DNA from: Victivallales bacterium
GTDB taxonomy: Bacteria; Verrucomicrobiota; Lentisphaeria; Oligosphaerales; Oligosphaeraceae
NCBI GenBank assembly: GCA_017615955.1
Contig: JAFZZD010000731.1
Span: 1 to 22,115 of the forward strand
DNA length: 22,115 nt
Reading direction: 5' to 3'
Shown here: positions 824 to 10,766 of the stretch, one piece after another
How the letters are laid out: each line of letters begins with the position of its first letter
Numbering within the stretch: position 1 is the first letter of the stretch
Translations under genes and position numbers: made by a program
Notes under the pieces: generated by a model
Databases searched by the model: none
What the model saw: the letters and a program-made list of their open reading frames with translations, nothing else
What the model was told of the DNA's origin: nothing

Positions 824-1185
824 TGCTGAAGCGCCGCGAGTTTGAAGACGCCAGCAGGGGCCGCGTCTATGTTCTTGAAGCCCCGCTCCGGTTTACTGTG
901 AAGGGGCTGGCGCTTGAAGTGCCCGAGGGCTTTGAATCTGACGGGTGCTCATGTCCCAGATGGCTTTGGCCGCTGTTCTCGCCAGCAAGGGAAGCCAGAT
1001 ATCTTGAGGCCGCAATATGCCACGACTACTTGTATGCAACACACGCAGTATCACGCAAGGACGCCGACAAGTGGTATAGGGACGCGCTGAGGGAAGCCGG
1101 ATGCACTGCGGCCACGGCATACGCTGGATATTTGGCACTTAGGCTTTGCGGCGGCAGTCACTGGGATAATTCCACAGAAATTTGA
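823..1185 (+). CDS. DUF1353-family phage protein
   Basis: The 120-residue product matches the phage DUF1353 pattern: a beta-rich N-terminus ending in GFESDGCSCPRWLWP (usual form GF-x-TD-x-ASVP), then AAICHDYLY (the conserved HD-W/Y-LY motif, H67-D68), then RKDADKWYRDAL and a glycine-rich C-terminal AGYLALRLCGG. The function of the family is unknown. It is common in tailed-phage genomes near tail or lysis genes, and its conserved His/Asp pair has prompted suggestions of an enzymatic role. The start overlaps the previous stop by one base. The stop TGA (1183-1185) lies inside the -35 box of the following RNA promoter, so this gene ends exactly where the next transcription unit begins. Confidence 0.8.
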   Translation: MLKRREFEDASRGRVYVLEAPLRFTVKGLALEVPEGFESDGCSCPRWLWPLFSPAREARYLEAAICHDYLYATHAVSRKDADKWYRDALREAGCTAATAYAGYLALRLCGGSHWDNSTEI

Positions 1186-1210
1186 CAAGACAGAAAACCG
1201 AATATATTAA
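1182..1210 (+). promoter_or_regulatory. Sigma70-type promoter of the solitary-repeat RNA
   Basis: A perfect -35 box TTGACA (1182-1187) is followed after 17 bp by TATTAA (1205-1210). A slightly better -10, TATATT (1203-1208), sits at 15-bp spacing. Either predicts transcription starting near 1215-1218, immediately at the 5' end of the CRISPR-like repeat. The -35 box overlaps the stop codon of the upstream gene. The promoter appears constitutive; I see no operator dyad over it. Confidence 0.75.
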
Positions 1211-1216
1211 GCGGCT

Positions 1217-1249
1217 GTCAGCATCCTTTTAATTTCTACTCTTGTAGAT
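1217..1249 (+). CRISPR. Single type V-A (Cas12a) direct repeat, no array
   Basis: The 33-nt element begins GTCA, continues GCATCCTTTT and ends with the invariant Cas12a handle AATTTCTACTCTTGTAGAT. The Acidaminococcus-type full repeat as I remember it begins GTCAAAAGACC, then T-rich. The phage copy therefore keeps the GTCA start, the CC-T(4) junction and the whole 3' half, and is about 2 nt shorter with changes only in the 5' half that Cas12a trims away. No second copy and no cas gene were found in the window. Conservation limited to the Cas12a-binding half argues for selection on binding. Confidence 0.85.
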
Positions 1250-1292
1250 GATATATGGGTGCTGTGAGTTGAAACGCCTTAGACAAGGCCGG

Positions 1293-1322
1293 GGCCATTG
1301 ATGCAGCGTCAATGGCCTTTTT
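1293..1322 (+). terminator. Rho-independent terminator of the solitary-repeat RNA
   Basis: A perfect 9-bp stem GGCCATTGA (1293-1301) / TCAATGGCC (1309-1317) encloses the 7-nt loop TGCAGCG and is followed by five T (1318-1322). It ends the small RNA and separates it from the gene starting 15 nt downstream. Confidence 0.9.
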
Positions 1323-1337
1323 ACTGAAGACGCCGCA

Positions 1338-2216
1338 ATGAAAATCAAGTGCCCATACTGCAAGCAGTCATACGATCTGACAGATGCCGACATCCAGGCA
1401 TTCGCCGGACAGAGCCTGCAATGTGAACAATGCAGCAGGGCATTCAGCCTGCAGGAAGCGATGCCCGCCGTGGAAGAATACCTGAAGCTGTTGAAATGTC
1501 AGCAGCGCCTTGCTGATGCCAGGGGGAATGTTGCCACGGCAAAGACAGCGCTGAAGGAATGCGGGAAGACGGGCACGGGCGACTACTTTGACGAGGGGCG
1601 CTTCGACAGGGCCGCCGCCGAAATGGAACTTGACGCAATGCGCTGGGATCTGGACAGGCTGAAGGAGGATGCGGCTGAAGCGAAGCAGCTTTATCAGGCG
1701 GCAAAAAGCGACCTTCCCAAAATCAGGGAAAGCAAAAGCATATATGCAGTCCAAATGTATGACCTGTTTGAACGTGGATTCCTGAAGGCCCCGATATCAG
1801 CTGATGACAAGGAGCGCATTCTGCGATATATCCAGATGGGAAATTGCACGGACATGCTGGAGGAAATCACGCACAACAAGGCGCTGTGGTATTGCCTGAC
1901 AGGGGAATATGCAGCGATCTGCGACAAGCTGTGCGCAAGGTATTTGCCCATGCTGGGGCATGATTACACCGAGGATGGGACGATCACGGACAAGCAAGCG
2001 GCGCTTTTGGTTAAATTTGGGCTGGAGGCTGGACAGGTGGAAAAGATCAGCAAGCAGGATGCAAGCTGGCTGATTACGATGATACTGAACAAGGACGGCG
2101 AGGCGCTTGACGGCTGGCTGTACGAATTCAGGCACTGCGAGAACAAAACTGCATTGCTGGCGATGATCCAGCGATTCAGCGCGGCCCCCGTGGTCATTCC
2201 CCCGCCTAAAGACTAG
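1338..2216 (+). CDS. N-terminal zinc-ribbon protein with coiled coil, unknown function
   Basis: The 292-residue product starts with an MJ0042-type zinc ribbon: CPYC at residues 5-8 and CEQC at 29-32, with the intervening YDLTDADIQ...GQSLQ pattern typical of that motif. A long charged helical stretch (about residues 45-130) follows, then an all-alpha C-terminal part without recognised motifs, ending in a proline-rich tail. It starts 15 nt after the terminator of the solitary-repeat RNA and has no good Shine-Dalgarno sequence, so expression probably depends on read-through or an unseen promoter. It lies in the stretch between lysis and integrase genes where temperate phages often carry accessory (moron) genes. 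A link to anti-defence is speculation from position alone. Being DNA-, RNA- or protein-binding is all the zinc ribbon permits. Confidence 0.75.
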   Translation: MKIKCPYCKQSYDLTDADIQAFAGQSLQCEQCSRAFSLQEAMPAVEEYLKLLKCQQRLADARGNVATAKTALKECGKTGTGDYFDEGRFDRAAAEMELDAMRWDLDRLKEDAAEAKQLYQAAKSDLPKIRESKSIYAVQMYDLFERGFLKAPISADDKERILRYIQMGNCTDMLEEITHNKALWYCLTGEYAAICDKLCARYLPMLGHDYTEDGTITDKQAALLVKFGLEAGQVEKISKQDASWLITMILNKDGEALDGWLYEFRHCENKTALLAMIQRFSAAPVVIPPPKD

Positions 2217-2373: not shown

Positions 2374-4128
2374 ATGAAGAACGCGATAATCTACGCCAGG
2401 CAGAGCTTCGGGAAGGAAGAAAACAGCCTTAGTATTGCGGAGCAGGTCCAGTCATGCAAGGACTATGCGCAGGCCCAGGGGATGAAGGTGCTGGCAGTCT
2501 TCCAGGACAGCAACTGCTCCAGTGAACTTTATCCAGACTGCGAGGAAGGCCGCGCCCAGTGCAAGCTAGACAAGGCCTTTCAGAAATGGCAAAGGGACCA
2601 GCGGACGCCTGGGCGCAAGGAATTCAAGAAGGGGCTCGGCGATGCCTTCAATTTCATAGAGCAGCGCCATCCCGACTGCCTTATCGTCTATAACCGCAAT
2701 AGGCTCGGGCGGGTGGTCATGGACTCCCAGCTAAACAAATTCTTTAATCAGTTTTTCAAGGAACATGGAACACGCCTCGCCTGCTTGCAGGAGAATCTCG
2801 TAATGGACCTACGCAAGGATTCACCAATGATGCAGCTGTTTATGGAAATGAAAAACCAGATGGATGATATGTCACTTGAGGAAAAAAAGGCGGCTTCCAT
2901 TGCGGTTAAGAACAGGCTGAAGGATGAGCGCAAAATCTATTCAAGGGCATACGCCGTGCTGTGGGACAAGACGGCCAAGAAGATTTCATTCGATCCAATT
3001 GGCGTGGAAGTCGTGAAAGAGATCTTCAAGATGTTTCTGGCCGGGGCAAGTTGGAACGGACTTATGAACTGGCTGAACATGAACAAAAAGAACCTTGTCA
3101 ATGTCTGTGGGAAACGCACGGCGAAGCAATGGTACATAACAAATGTAATTCATATGATCCAAAATCCCGTGTATTGTGGTTACAGCTACGACACGCAAAA
3201 GGTATTGGGGAAGATCGCAAATCTTGAAGGTGACGCTCCCATCAGCTATCTTGACTGGAAAAAGGCGCAGGAGCTGTGCAAGGAGCGCACGGCATACAGC
3301 AGAGACGCACATCCTGAGACGAACTCCAGGACGGGCTACAACCTGAACGGCCACAAGAACAGAGCCGAGACGGAGCTTCGCTTCCATCCATACACGGGGC
3401 TTATCTACTGCCCCTGCGGAAGGCGCATGATTCACCGCATGGACCACGGAAAATCCATCTATGAATGCAGGAACGGCAGAGACCACACTGGCGCACGTCT
3501 TCAGATGGACGCCAGTTTCATCAAGGCCATTGAGGCACTTATGAAGCTTCGCCTTTGGGAGGTCACGGCAAAGGCCCAGGCTGGCCAGTCAGCCGAGGCC
3601 CGCATTGCAGACCTTACGGCGCAGCTTGACCAGATTAACCAGAAGCGCCAGCGCATGTTCGATCTCGCCACGGAGGGCGAGCTGGGCGGCGAATTCAAGG
3701 CCCAGTTTGATGCGCTGAAGGTCAGACGCGCTGAAATCGAGGAGGCCTTGAACGTTGCCAAGGCCGAGCAGGATCAGGACTGGAAGGCTGTTGCCTGCGC
3801 CTGCGTGGCGAAATACACGGCGCTTGAGGCTGGCACGCTTGACCATCTTGAATATAAAGAGGTCCTGAATGCCACAATCAAAAAGATTACAGTCCAGGCA
3901 GACAAACTGGAGGTCATTCTCTGGGATGATGCCAAAATCGACATTCAGAGAATCACCACGGACAAGCGGGGGCATAAGGTGGTCGAGGACATAGGGGACA
4001 TTCCCCTCCCCAATGATGATTTTATGAATCGTCAGGGAAAACGGATCATTCTTATGAATTCTAAATCAAGGATAATCAAGTCGGTTTCGGCAGACTGGGA
4101 CGACGGCGAATGCCACATTTCCTACTGA
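2374..4128 (+). CDS. Large serine recombinase (phage integrase)
   Basis: This 584-residue site-specific recombinase should integrate the phage at a bacterial attB and, with a directionality factor, excise it. The N-terminal resolvase domain (about 1-185) carries the YARQS motif with the nucleophile candidate S11, the downstream NRNRLGR helix and a long alpha-E helix (DDMSLEEKKAASIAVKNRLK). The recombinase domain (about 190-330) contains WYITNVIHMIQNPVYCG, the usual TVxxILxNPxYxG motif. A Cys-rich ribbon (YCPCGRR...YECRNG) and a coiled coil (about 405-470) follow, typical of large serine integrases. An insertion of about 30 residues lies between the catalytic DSNCS and the RKEF segment. The start is supported by AAGGAG (2359-2364), 9 nt upstream. 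A 56-bp dyad resembling attP lies just upstream. Confidence 0.93.
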   Translation: MKNAIIYARQSFGKEENSLSIAEQVQSCKDYAQAQGMKVLAVFQDSNCSSELYPDCEEGRAQCKLDKAFQKWQRDQRTPGRKEFKKGLGDAFNFIEQRHPDCLIVYNRNRLGRVVMDSQLNKFFNQFFKEHGTRLACLQENLVMDLRKDSPMMQLFMEMKNQMDDMSLEEKKAASIAVKNRLKDERKIYSRAYAVLWDKTAKKISFDPIGVEVVKEIFKMFLAGASWNGLMNWLNMNKKNLVNVCGKRTAKQWYITNVIHMIQNPVYCGYSYDTQKVLGKIANLEGDAPISYLDWKKAQELCKERTAYSRDAHPETNSRTGYNLNGHKNRAETELRFHPYTGLIYCPCGRRMIHRMDHGKSIYECRNGRDHTGARLQMDASFIKAIEALMKLRLWEVTAKAQAGQSAEARIADLTAQLDQINQKRQRMFDLATEGELGGEFKAQFDALKVRRAEIEEALNVAKAEQDQDWKAVACACVAKYTALEAGTLDHLEYKEVLNATIKKITVQADKLEVILWDDAKIDIQRITTDKRGHKVVEDIGDIPLPNDDFMNRQGKRIILMNSKSRIIKSVSADWDDGECHISY

Positions 4129-9014: not shown

Positions 9015-9981
9015 CACGGCGCGGCAGATGCGCCAGACAATCCAGCAGCACGGCCAGCAGCTGGCAGATGAGATCCAAAAGCTGATGCGCCAGGATGCCG
9101 AACAACTGGCCAGCGGCGAGACATTGCTTTCGTCCAGGTATGGCGAGTGCCCGTTTTCAGTGCTGAACACCAATACAGGCCGCTGGCGGGGCCGCGAAAG
9201 AGAATACAAGGACATTGGATTGCAGAGCGGCTGCGGTCGTGACGTGGAGCTGTACAACACGGGCGGGTCGCTGGCAGTGAAGCGCTTCGCCACGGGAACC
9301 AGCGTTTTCTCTGCGCATCTGTGCGAACTGGTATATGACTGGTACTGCCCAGACGGCGGCAGTGTGCTGGATCCTTTTGCTGGCGGCAGTGTTCGCGGCA
9401 TTGTGGCAGGAATGCGCGGCCATTCATACACCGGCATCGACATCCGGCAAGAACAGATAGATGCTAACCTGGCGCAGGTGGAATCAATGGCAGACCGCCT
9501 GGTAACACGGCCCCAGTACATATGCGGCGATTCACGCGCCCTACTGGATGACGTGCAGGGACAGTATGACCTTGTTTTCACGTGCCCGCCATATGGTGAC
9601 CTTGAGGTTTACAGCAAGCTCGAAGGCGATATAAGCAACATGAGTTATCATGATTTCATTCAGGCGTATTGCGACATAATCAAGAAAAGCTGCGGCAAGC
9701 TGAAAGAAGGCTGCTTCGCCGTCTTCGTTGTTGGTGATTTCAGGGACAGTAAAGGATTCCTGCAAGGCTTTGTCCCAGACACTGTATATGCTTTTCAGCT
9801 GGCGGGAATGAACTACTATAATGAAATGATACTTGAAACCCCCGCCGGAACTGCTCCAATGAGGGCAAAGCAGTTTGACGCAAGCAGGAAGATACTGAAG
9901 ATTCATCAGAATGTGCTTGTTTTCTGCAAGGGCAGACCCGACAGGCGCAATTTCAGGAAGTTTGATGGAGGGGACGGATGA
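9004..9981 (+). CDS. DNA methyltransferase (N4-cytosine/N6-adenine type)
   Basis: This 325-residue protein should transfer a methyl group from S-adenosylmethionine to an exocyclic amino group in DNA. The SAM-binding motif I is SVLDPFAGGSVRG (D123-S129) and the catalytic motif IV is TCPPYGD (C194-Y197). The C-terminal KILKIHQNVLVFCKG is characteristic of this superfamily. Motif I precedes motif IV, with no separate recognition domain between. An N-terminal helical extension of about 75 residues has no known role. No restriction endonuclease is nearby, so it is an orphan enzyme, probably protecting phage DNA or marking it. It overlaps the sigma-like gene by 11 nt and shares ATGA with the following PLP-fold gene. 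Confidence 0.85.
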   Translation: MRNSTARQMRQTIQQHGQQLADEIQKLMRQDAEQLASGETLLSSRYGECPFSVLNTNTGRWRGREREYKDIGLQSGCGRDVELYNTGGSLAVKRFATGTSVFSAHLCELVYDWYCPDGGSVLDPFAGGSVRGIVAGMRGHSYTGIDIRQEQIDANLAQVESMADRLVTRPQYICGDSRALLDDVQGQYDLVFTCPPYGDLEVYSKLEGDISNMSYHDFIQAYCDIIKKSCGKLKEGCFAVFVVGDFRDSKGFLQGFVPDTVYAFQLAGMNYYNEMILETPAGTAPMRAKQFDASRKILKIHQNVLVFCKGRPDRRNFRKFDGGDG

Positions 9982-10766
9982 CAGGTGACATACACGAGTT
10001 AACCCCCGTGGAGCGCCACGGGGACGTATGGCTGAAGCGTGATGATCTTTTCCAGATATTCGGCGCCTGCGGAGGGAAGGCCCGTGCCGCATATGCGCTG
10101 ATAAGGCAGGGGCTGGATCTGGGATTTGATACCTTCGTGACGGCAGGGAGCAGAGAATCTCCACAGTGCGAACTGGTGTCGGCGATCTGCGAAGGGCTGG
10201 GCGTGAACGCAATTTGCGTGATGCCCCGTGGCAAGGAGACAAGCATAATCAGGAACATCGGCAGAAATAGCCACACTGAACTAGTCAGGGCCAAGCTCGG
10301 CTACAACACCTATATAATCCATATGGCAAAGAAGCTGGCGCAGGAACGCGGCGCATTCTACATTCCGTTCGGTATGGAATGCTGGGATAACATCAGAATG
10401 ACCATGAGCCAGGCGGCGAACATCCCAGACAATACAGGACGTGTAGTCGTGCCCGTGGGAAGCGGAATGACGCTGGCGGCACTGGTGAACGGCCTTCACC
10501 TGATGGGCAAGCGGATTCCAGTGCTGGGAATTCAGGTGGGGAAGGACCCGCGTAAAATCCTGGACAAGTATTTGTTTGAAGCTTGTCGAGACAACTACCA
10601 GATCCAGACGGCCCCCATGGACTATCACACCGCATGTGACGGCGTGGCCATTGATGGAATCCCGCTGGACAGGATATACGAGGCCAAGTGCAGACCATTC
10701 CTGCAAGGTGGAGATTGTCTATGGATAGTGGGTCGCAGACAGGAGGCCAGCAATGGGGACGATTGA
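9978..10766 (+). CDS. PLP-dependent fold-type II enzyme homologue (ACC deaminase / D-cysteine desulfhydrase-like)
   Basis: The 262-residue protein resembles the pyridoxal-phosphate enzymes that act on D-cysteine or 1-aminocyclopropane-1-carboxylate. VWLKRDDLFQIFGACGGKAR aligns with the family's KRDD...GGNKxRK motif, placing the Schiff-base lysine at K34. VVPVGSGMTLAAL (about 155-167) matches the glycine-rich PLP phosphate loop (GSGGT). At 262 residues it is shorter than the usual 320-340. Its start overlaps the methyltransferase stop by four bases, so the two are translationally coupled. This suggests a joint role in DNA base modification or in supplying or removing an amino compound. The substrate cannot be told from sequence. 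Confidence 0.75.
   Translation: MTGDIHELTPVERHGDVWLKRDDLFQIFGACGGKARAAYALIRQGLDLGFDTFVTAGSRESPQCELVSAICEGLGVNAICVMPRGKETSIIRNIGRNSHTELVRAKLGYNTYIIHMAKKLAQERGAFYIPFGMECWDNIRMTMSQAANIPDNTGRVVVPVGSGMTLAALVNGLHLMGKRIPVLGIQVGKDPRKILDKYLFEACRDNYQIQTAPMDYHTACDGVAIDGIPLDRIYEAKCRPFLQGGDCLWIVGRRQEASNGDD

Follow-up and report, generated by a model that had tools for sequence, protein, structure and literature searches.

RNA anti-CRISPRs (Racrs) of types I-C and V-A are each known experimentally and inhibit their respective systems, as described in PMC10651486. The published type V-A examples, RacrVA1-3, are solitary intergenic V-A repeats on mobile elements that mimic the Cas12a repeat, and V-A Racrs inhibit Moraxella bovoculi Cas12a (Camara-Wilpert et al. 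2023, PMC10651486). The same source describes RacrIF1 as acting via an aberrant subcomplex, and RacrIC1 as a solitary I-C-type repeat beside AcrIC5 on one bicistronic RNA. In type I-C systems, Cas5c is reported to cut the repeat 11 nt before the spacer, with one Cas5 remaining on the hairpin (PMC3727216, PMC5965380). A crRNA-like RNA that engages Cas proteins, CreR, is described for V-A systems, where it recognizes the cognate cas promoter (review PMC12737573).

Here we analyze a candidate RNA unit in a phage sequence of 22,115 nucleotides, the whole of which is referred to as the window. The unit resembles RacrVA1-3 as a solitary intergenic V-A repeat on a mobile element, with putative mimicry of the Cas12a repeat; set against their published description rather than their sequences, it differs in that its V-A element is a bare handle in the loop of an I-C repeat. 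It likewise shares a solitary I-C-type repeat with RacrIC1, but a V-A handle is inserted in the I-C loop and a second hairpin, here called the plug hairpin, follows the I-C tag. As a crRNA-like RNA that may engage Cas proteins it also recalls CreR; unlike CreR, its guide had no target at a cas promoter in the cas12a loci we searched. Our favored interpretation, which we consider probable, is that the unit encodes a repeat-mimic RNA of dual type that would decoy both Cas5c and Cas12a.

Results

The window derives from a temperate phage, with genes for a DUF1353 protein, a serine integrase, excisionase-like HTH proteins, a methyltransferase, terminase, portal, protease and capsid, along with a primase-like ORF (weak match) and a sigma-like ORF. 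No cas family was recognized among the window ORFs scanned (20 against PHROGs, 10 against Pfam and 10 against NCBIfam), and the unit sits among phage genes of this mobile element with no cas genes beside it among those ORFs. Immediately downstream of the unit lies an ORF whose N-terminal zinc-ribbon matches in Pfam and NCBIfam fall below the curated cut-offs. The integrase had no match among INPHARED phages; one relative of the integrase is named Lentisphaerae (27%), and one of the terminase Victivallales (59%). Among 387 drawn genomes from the phylum of G005, a Kiritimatiellae metagenome-assembled genome (MAG), the closest terminase is that of G275 (58% over residues 189-619). We take the order of G275 as the host order and infer that it is Victivallales. 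Elsewhere in the phage, a PALP/threonine dehydratase-like ORF (9978-10766) adjoins a DNA methyltransferase ORF.

Table 1. Features of the candidate unit and its surroundings in the window
Feature	Position	Strand	Basis or remark
DUF1353 phage ORF	823-1185	+	Upstream of the unit
-35-like TTGACA	1182-1187	+	Sequence; overlaps the DUF1353 ORF stop codon
Alternative -10, TATATT	1203-1208	+	15-nt spacer
-10-like TATTAA	1205-1210	+	17-nt spacer after TTGACA; predicted start ~1217 (prediction only)
Type I-C-like repeat split by an inserted loop, GTC-arm-loop-arm-GTGAGTTGAAAC	1217-1275	+	
I-C-like stem, 5' arm CAGCATCC	1219-1226	+	Fold; pair probabilities 0.966-1.0
Cas12a (V-A) handle TAATTTCTACTCTTGTAGAT, nested in the I-C-like loop	1230-1249	+	
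26 nt between V-A handle and plug hairpin ("linker" of the sequence-only reading)	1250-1275	+	
I-C-like stem, 3' arm GGGTGCTG	1257-1264	+	Fold
I-C-like 3' tag GTGAGTTGAAAC	1264-1275	+	
Plug hairpin GCCTT-AGAC-AAGGC	1276-1289	+	Begins at the first base past the I-C tag
Intrinsic terminator	Stem 1293-1317, T5 1318-1322	+	9-bp core stem, 13 pairs in fold
ORF with weak N-terminal zinc-ribbon match	1338-2216	+	Starts 16 nt past the terminator
Serine integrase	2374-4128	+	

An earlier sequence-only reading had described promoter-like hexamers, a handle, a linker, a hairpin and a terminator at this locus, and all of these lie where it placed them, give or take a base (Table 1). The promoter and terminator were assigned by inspection and folding. 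A consensus scan of the window lists neither the TTGACA/TATTAA promoter, because TATTAA lacks the final T that the scan requires, nor the 1293-1322 terminator, probably because its stem runs into the T tract. The hexamers and their spacing put the predicted start at the beginning of the repeat, which gives a candidate RNA of about 106 nt (1217-1322, predicted start to terminator end). Rfam held no match for the unit.

The V-A handle is exact and is the only match in the window at three or fewer mismatches, where shuffled sequences led us to expect none; it also conforms to the pattern AAUUUCUACU-loop-GUAGAU with a 5-bp stem. The exact 20-mer is rare, occurring in five stretches of IMG/VR and nine of a collection of 84,980 species genomes. 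Three of the IMG/VR stretches (L001, L003, L005) contain one common unit of TTGACA, TAGAAT, handle and terminator, and the other two (L002, L004) have in common an AT-rich context without such a promoter-handle-terminator unit. A looser scan returned at least 112 stretches. Its 120 handle matches formed 78 clusters, 51 of them intergenic, and 17 of the latter had both promoter-like and terminator-like flanks (a figure that counts L022 twice and L034 three times). With a scrambled control pattern that preserved the stem, there were 25 matches in 10 clusters, 2 intergenic and none with both flanks. The terminator stem of L113, L087 and L048 begins 4-8 bases after the handle and so leaves no room for a guide, which argues that such units are decoys. 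The sequence-only reading proposed a solitary mimic of the V-A repeat flanked by promoter-like and terminator-like sequences, and in this it is supported: the element is of the published Racr kind, with one exact handle in the window.

A second handle scan, with A at the first position, yielded at least 81 stretches. Across the 46 intergenic units of the TAATTTC set, a good -10 element ends 3-8 nt before the handle in 14 contigs, as against 3-7 at other offsets. The AAATTTC set showed this spacing in 5 of 35 and no peak, and only 1 of its 38 intergenic clusters had a sigma70-type promoter with a terminator under the rule of this analysis. Since the spacing was not repeated in the second set, we make no general claim about it. 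Many of the 78 and 61 handle clusters from the two scans are probably chance or coding matches.

Several of these loci have features of separate interest. Three different phage V-A units (L001, L087, L113) have (C/T)TACTGTCGTA in common in the loops of their terminators, and CTACTGTCGTAG is the stem-loop of a genuine V-A repeat in genome G158 (L175). On the minus strand of the phage contig L034, a stretch of about 500 bp contains three separate handle units with promoter-like flanks. At 3700-3840 of L118, from a Kiritimatiellae MAG without a Cas12a match, a solitary exact handle with a terminator has likely phage genes on one side and a tyrosine integrase on the other; it has a possible outer stem GGCGTA/TGCGCC.

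The sequence on either side of the window handle reads as a type I-C repeat. GTC-AGCATCC and GGGTGCT-GTGAGTTGAAAC frame an 8-bp stem with the Cas12a handle inside its loop, and in the predicted fold 1219-1226 pairs with 1257-1264 around the handle (pair probabilities at least 0.966). The motif GTGRRTTGAAAC occurs once in the window, within the tag (mean expectation 0.02; 2 of 100 shuffles have one). Judged by features drawn from I-C repeats of the order of G275, the interval 1217-1275 has a 5' GTC, a hairpin stem, a 3' GTGRRTTGAAAC and an 11-nt handle. The short apical loop of host I-C repeats, a few nucleotides long, is replaced here by a loop of 30 nt that holds the V-A handle, and for this reason we class the element as an I-C variant rather than a plain I-C repeat. 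Two details of the sequence-only reading are not supported: the GTCA...CC that it took for the drifted 5' half of a V-A repeat reads as part of an I-C repeat, and the 26 nt that it took for a plain linker carry an I-C arm and the GTGAGTTGAAAC tag. A drifted V-A 5' half was rejected on alignment as well, as seven V-A repeats from the phylum of G005 have no invariant column 5' of the handle. GTCAGC, or a near match to it, happens to be present in both the window and the V-A repeat of genome G188.

The outer stem could instead serve only to clamp or stabilize the handle of a Racr directed at V-A systems alone, its I-C likeness being accidental. In line with such a clamp, it is the 5' leader that closes the I-C stem in the prediction, and the handle fold depends on it too (handle-stem pair probabilities at least 0.97 with the leader and about 0.2 without it). 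Moreover, the arms by themselves are only modestly significant: when the leader, or leader and linker, were shuffled, the observed energy was reached in 11-85 of 3000 shuffles across six tests. However, the GTC, the arms, the 12-nt tag and the plug hairpin all stand in I-C register, and the same I-C combination recurs beside V-A handles of other phages. We regard an accidental likeness as unlikely.

This recurrence came from the second handle scan, which contained phages with an I-C-like repeat ending in GTGGATTGAAAC or similar directly before the handle. Of 205 handle matches (the window, L001-L113 and L241-L321, with near-identical copies included), 11 have an I-C-like tag at a distance of -90 to +110, where 0.16 would be expected. 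The tag pattern was written after the window and L250-type sequences, which are its source, were known; L054=L085=L086, L289 and L306 were found by the tag search itself. Elsewhere in this 1.78 Mb of sequence there are only three tags, each of them without a handle on its own strand in the surrounding 6 kb; the 25 control loci, which total 196 kb, contain one. In the class to which the uncultured Bacteroidetes MAG G003 belongs, none of 395 genomes has the tandem pattern. INPHARED phages gave no match to the L268 or L054 units and, for the window unit, just two fragments at E 0.6.

The 11 tagged matches amount to eight distinct sequences. The handle is nested within the I-C stem in two, the window and the group L054=L085=L086, and follows the I-C repeat in tandem in six (L250, L252, L268, L289, L281 and L271=L306); all have the I-C-like tag beside the V-A handle, as in the window. 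A GTC-arm...arm-GTG stem with 5-8 consecutive pairs is present in seven of the eight, and the arms mostly differ, with the same inner arm letters in L252 and L289; L271/L306 is without the GTC and is the weaker tandem unit. Each unit's own arms pair over at least 4 bp (7 of 7) and swapped arms rarely do (4 of 42), although the GTC chosen was the best-pairing one upstream, a choice that flatters the stem lengths and favors the units in this swap test. When the other units were folded, a handle stem was likely in each but L252 (0.32-0.38). The minimum-energy structure of L250, for which the folded stretch extended beyond the terminator, does not contain the I-C stem. The L054 handle overlies a 66-aa antisense ORF.

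At the first base past the I-C tag, the position at which an I-C guide would start, six of the eight dual units have a perfect 4-5-bp hairpin. These are the window and five of the tandem units; L054 and L271 are without it. Host I-C repeat junctions show such a hairpin in 5 of 102 cases, and random 24-mers in 571 of 20,000. The predicted plug hairpin is thus a link between the window unit and the tandem family.

We also considered whether the 26 nt after the handle might act as a guide for Cas12a in the manner of CreR, with either a host gene (the cas operon, for example) as the target of repression or a rival phage as the target of attack. A precedent lies in the V-A genome G188, where the 8-nt seed of a native solitary repeat matches TTTG-ATATGTTT in the region upstream of cas. 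The window seed GATAT overlaps this G188 site over 5 nt and has TTTT as its PAM. However, across the upstream regions of ten cas12a loci, from genomes other than the true host, 5 nt was the best match of the window seed with a TT-type PAM, at two sites. An 18-nt guide start had one match in IMG/VR, in a repeat tract without a T-rich PAM and chance-like, and none in plasmids. Among the 20 of 61 phage matches listed, the only guide matches were of 17 nt (E 8) and did not start at the seed. Moreover, the guide consists of the I-C arm and tag, which are predicted to be paired. With no target in IMG/VR, plasmids, phages (matches listed) or the ten cas12a upstream regions, we rejected a guide RNA with a recognizable target, and a CreR-like role in general appears very unlikely.

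The G188 repeat is of interest in itself. At ~6770-6880 of L173, this host solitary V-A repeat lies about 1 kb upstream of cas12a, and its guide start ATATGTTT matches a TTTG-ATATGTTT site beside TATAAT, 69 nt downstream. It is likely a CreR of the G188 lineage, as judged from its sequence; no such solitary-repeat unit was listed for the other nine cas12a upstream regions examined.

Absence of the unit from the closest relative examined would suit an inert relic, or a scar of recombination between two CRISPR arrays. This relative (L180/L194), with a 77% TerL, has the DUF1353 gene (54% identical) and the integrase (38%), but the unit and the zinc-ribbon ORF are absent. The sequence-only reading had named a decayed repeat in related phages as evidence that would count against it; besides L194, which is without the unit, four relative records, all possibly fragments, have no handle at three or fewer mismatches. 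The pattern of presence and absence points to an accessory element and not to decay, and the unit together with the zinc-ribbon ORF looks like an accessory insert between the DUF1353 gene and the integrase. Against a relic, both modules, the plug hairpin and the terminator fit into the 106 nt that follow the promoter-like hexamers. These parts recur in other phages, and there too the arms of a unit pair with each other. We judge a relic highly improbable.

Both CRISPR types occur in the inferred host order, to which our comparison of repeat type with host type is confined. Csd1/Cas8c was found in 11 of its 47 genomes, and a V-A handle array, adjoining cas12a, in one (G188, which has no Csd1 match); none of the genomes examined from this order had both systems together. 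Class-wide, Cas12a scored above the cut-off in 8 of 197 genomes. The readable I-C repeats of the order have the form GTC-stem-GTGAATTGAAAC, -GTGGGTTGAAAC or -GTGGATTGAAAC, so that the window tag varies at the same two positions. Spacer matches stayed at chance level: for 197 V-A-type spacers (14 loci, several phyla) compared with 17 sequences, the best match was 15 nt (14 on the window), and for 60 I-C spacers compared with 11 sequences it was 15 nt exact or 18 nt with one mismatch. A Racr against I-C alone, with an irrelevant loop insert, would fit the commoner system of this order, but chance would not be expected to yield the exact 20-nt Cas12a handle, and the I-C/V-A pairing recurs in other phages, which makes this explanation scarcely credible.

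Discussion

Our computations show that the two motifs are present, are predicted to fold jointly and recur side by side in other phages, and that both CRISPR types occur in the inferred order; from these results we infer transcription, protein binding and inhibition by the dual-type decoy. The unit would be transcribed into an RNA that mimics two CRISPR repeats, the 5' part being an I-C repeat hairpin and tag with the Cas12a handle within the hairpin loop. In a host with an I-C system, the stem and tag would be bound by Cas5c, which, by analogy with the cleavage described in PMC3727216 and PMC5965380, would cut after 1264 to leave an 11-nt 5' handle (1265-1275). A hairpin would then occupy the guide position of the cleaved product, and Cas5c, Cas7 and Cas8c may be drawn into dead-end complexes. 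In a V-A host, Cas12a would bind its handle and be left with the I-C arm and tag as a "guide"; as this has no known target, Cas12a would be sequestered.

RNA anti-CRISPRs are already known, and what would be new is the combination of two types. Those that we found in print each mimic one repeat type, and none with two repeat types is described in the open PMC literature searched or in the main text of PMC10651486 (supplementary tables apart); single modules of some loci may be listed in its supplement. With one handle (three or fewer mismatches) and one I-C tag, the window has the solitary repeat typical of a Racr. The SRUFinder rule, which serves detection and is not a definition, calls for a full-length repeat at 90% or more coverage and identity and 41.1 bits (PMC10651486). 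Aligned to the G188 repeat, the unit falls short of it (21 of 36 nt, 95%, 34.2 bits). With the As-type V-A repeat, in what we take to be its sequence, 23 of 35 nt align at 100% (46.1 bits, 66% coverage), which passes the bit limit and fails that for coverage. The published rule needs near full-length repeats, and neither a handle of 20 nt by itself nor an I-C repeat in two parts would pass it.

We lean, with some reserve, toward a broader proposal: that one phage RNA would disable two unrelated CRISPR classes, through a class 1 I-C decoy whose loop carries a class 2 Cas12a handle, and that it belongs to a wider family of multi-type Racrs, tandem and nested, which is spread over diverse phages and would be missed by searches for single full-length repeats. 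If this is true, phages pack counter-defences against two CRISPR classes into an RNA of ~106 nt, and an I-C tag beside a V-A handle offers a simple rule for finding more of them. It also raises the questions of whether Cas5c tolerates a large loop, whether Cas12a binds a handle enclosed by a stem, and whether such units go with hosts that alternate between I-C and V-A.

Some of the other phage units contain additional repeat-like elements. In L054, L085 and L086, a bare V-A handle (loop GCG) and a hairpin precede the nested module of V-A handle within I-C repeat, so that three repeat mimics lie within one apparent transcript. L250, L252, L268 and L281 have a further hairpin between the V-A handle and the terminator, possibly a third repeat mimic; some of these hairpins open with GTC and close with GTGG or GAGGATT.
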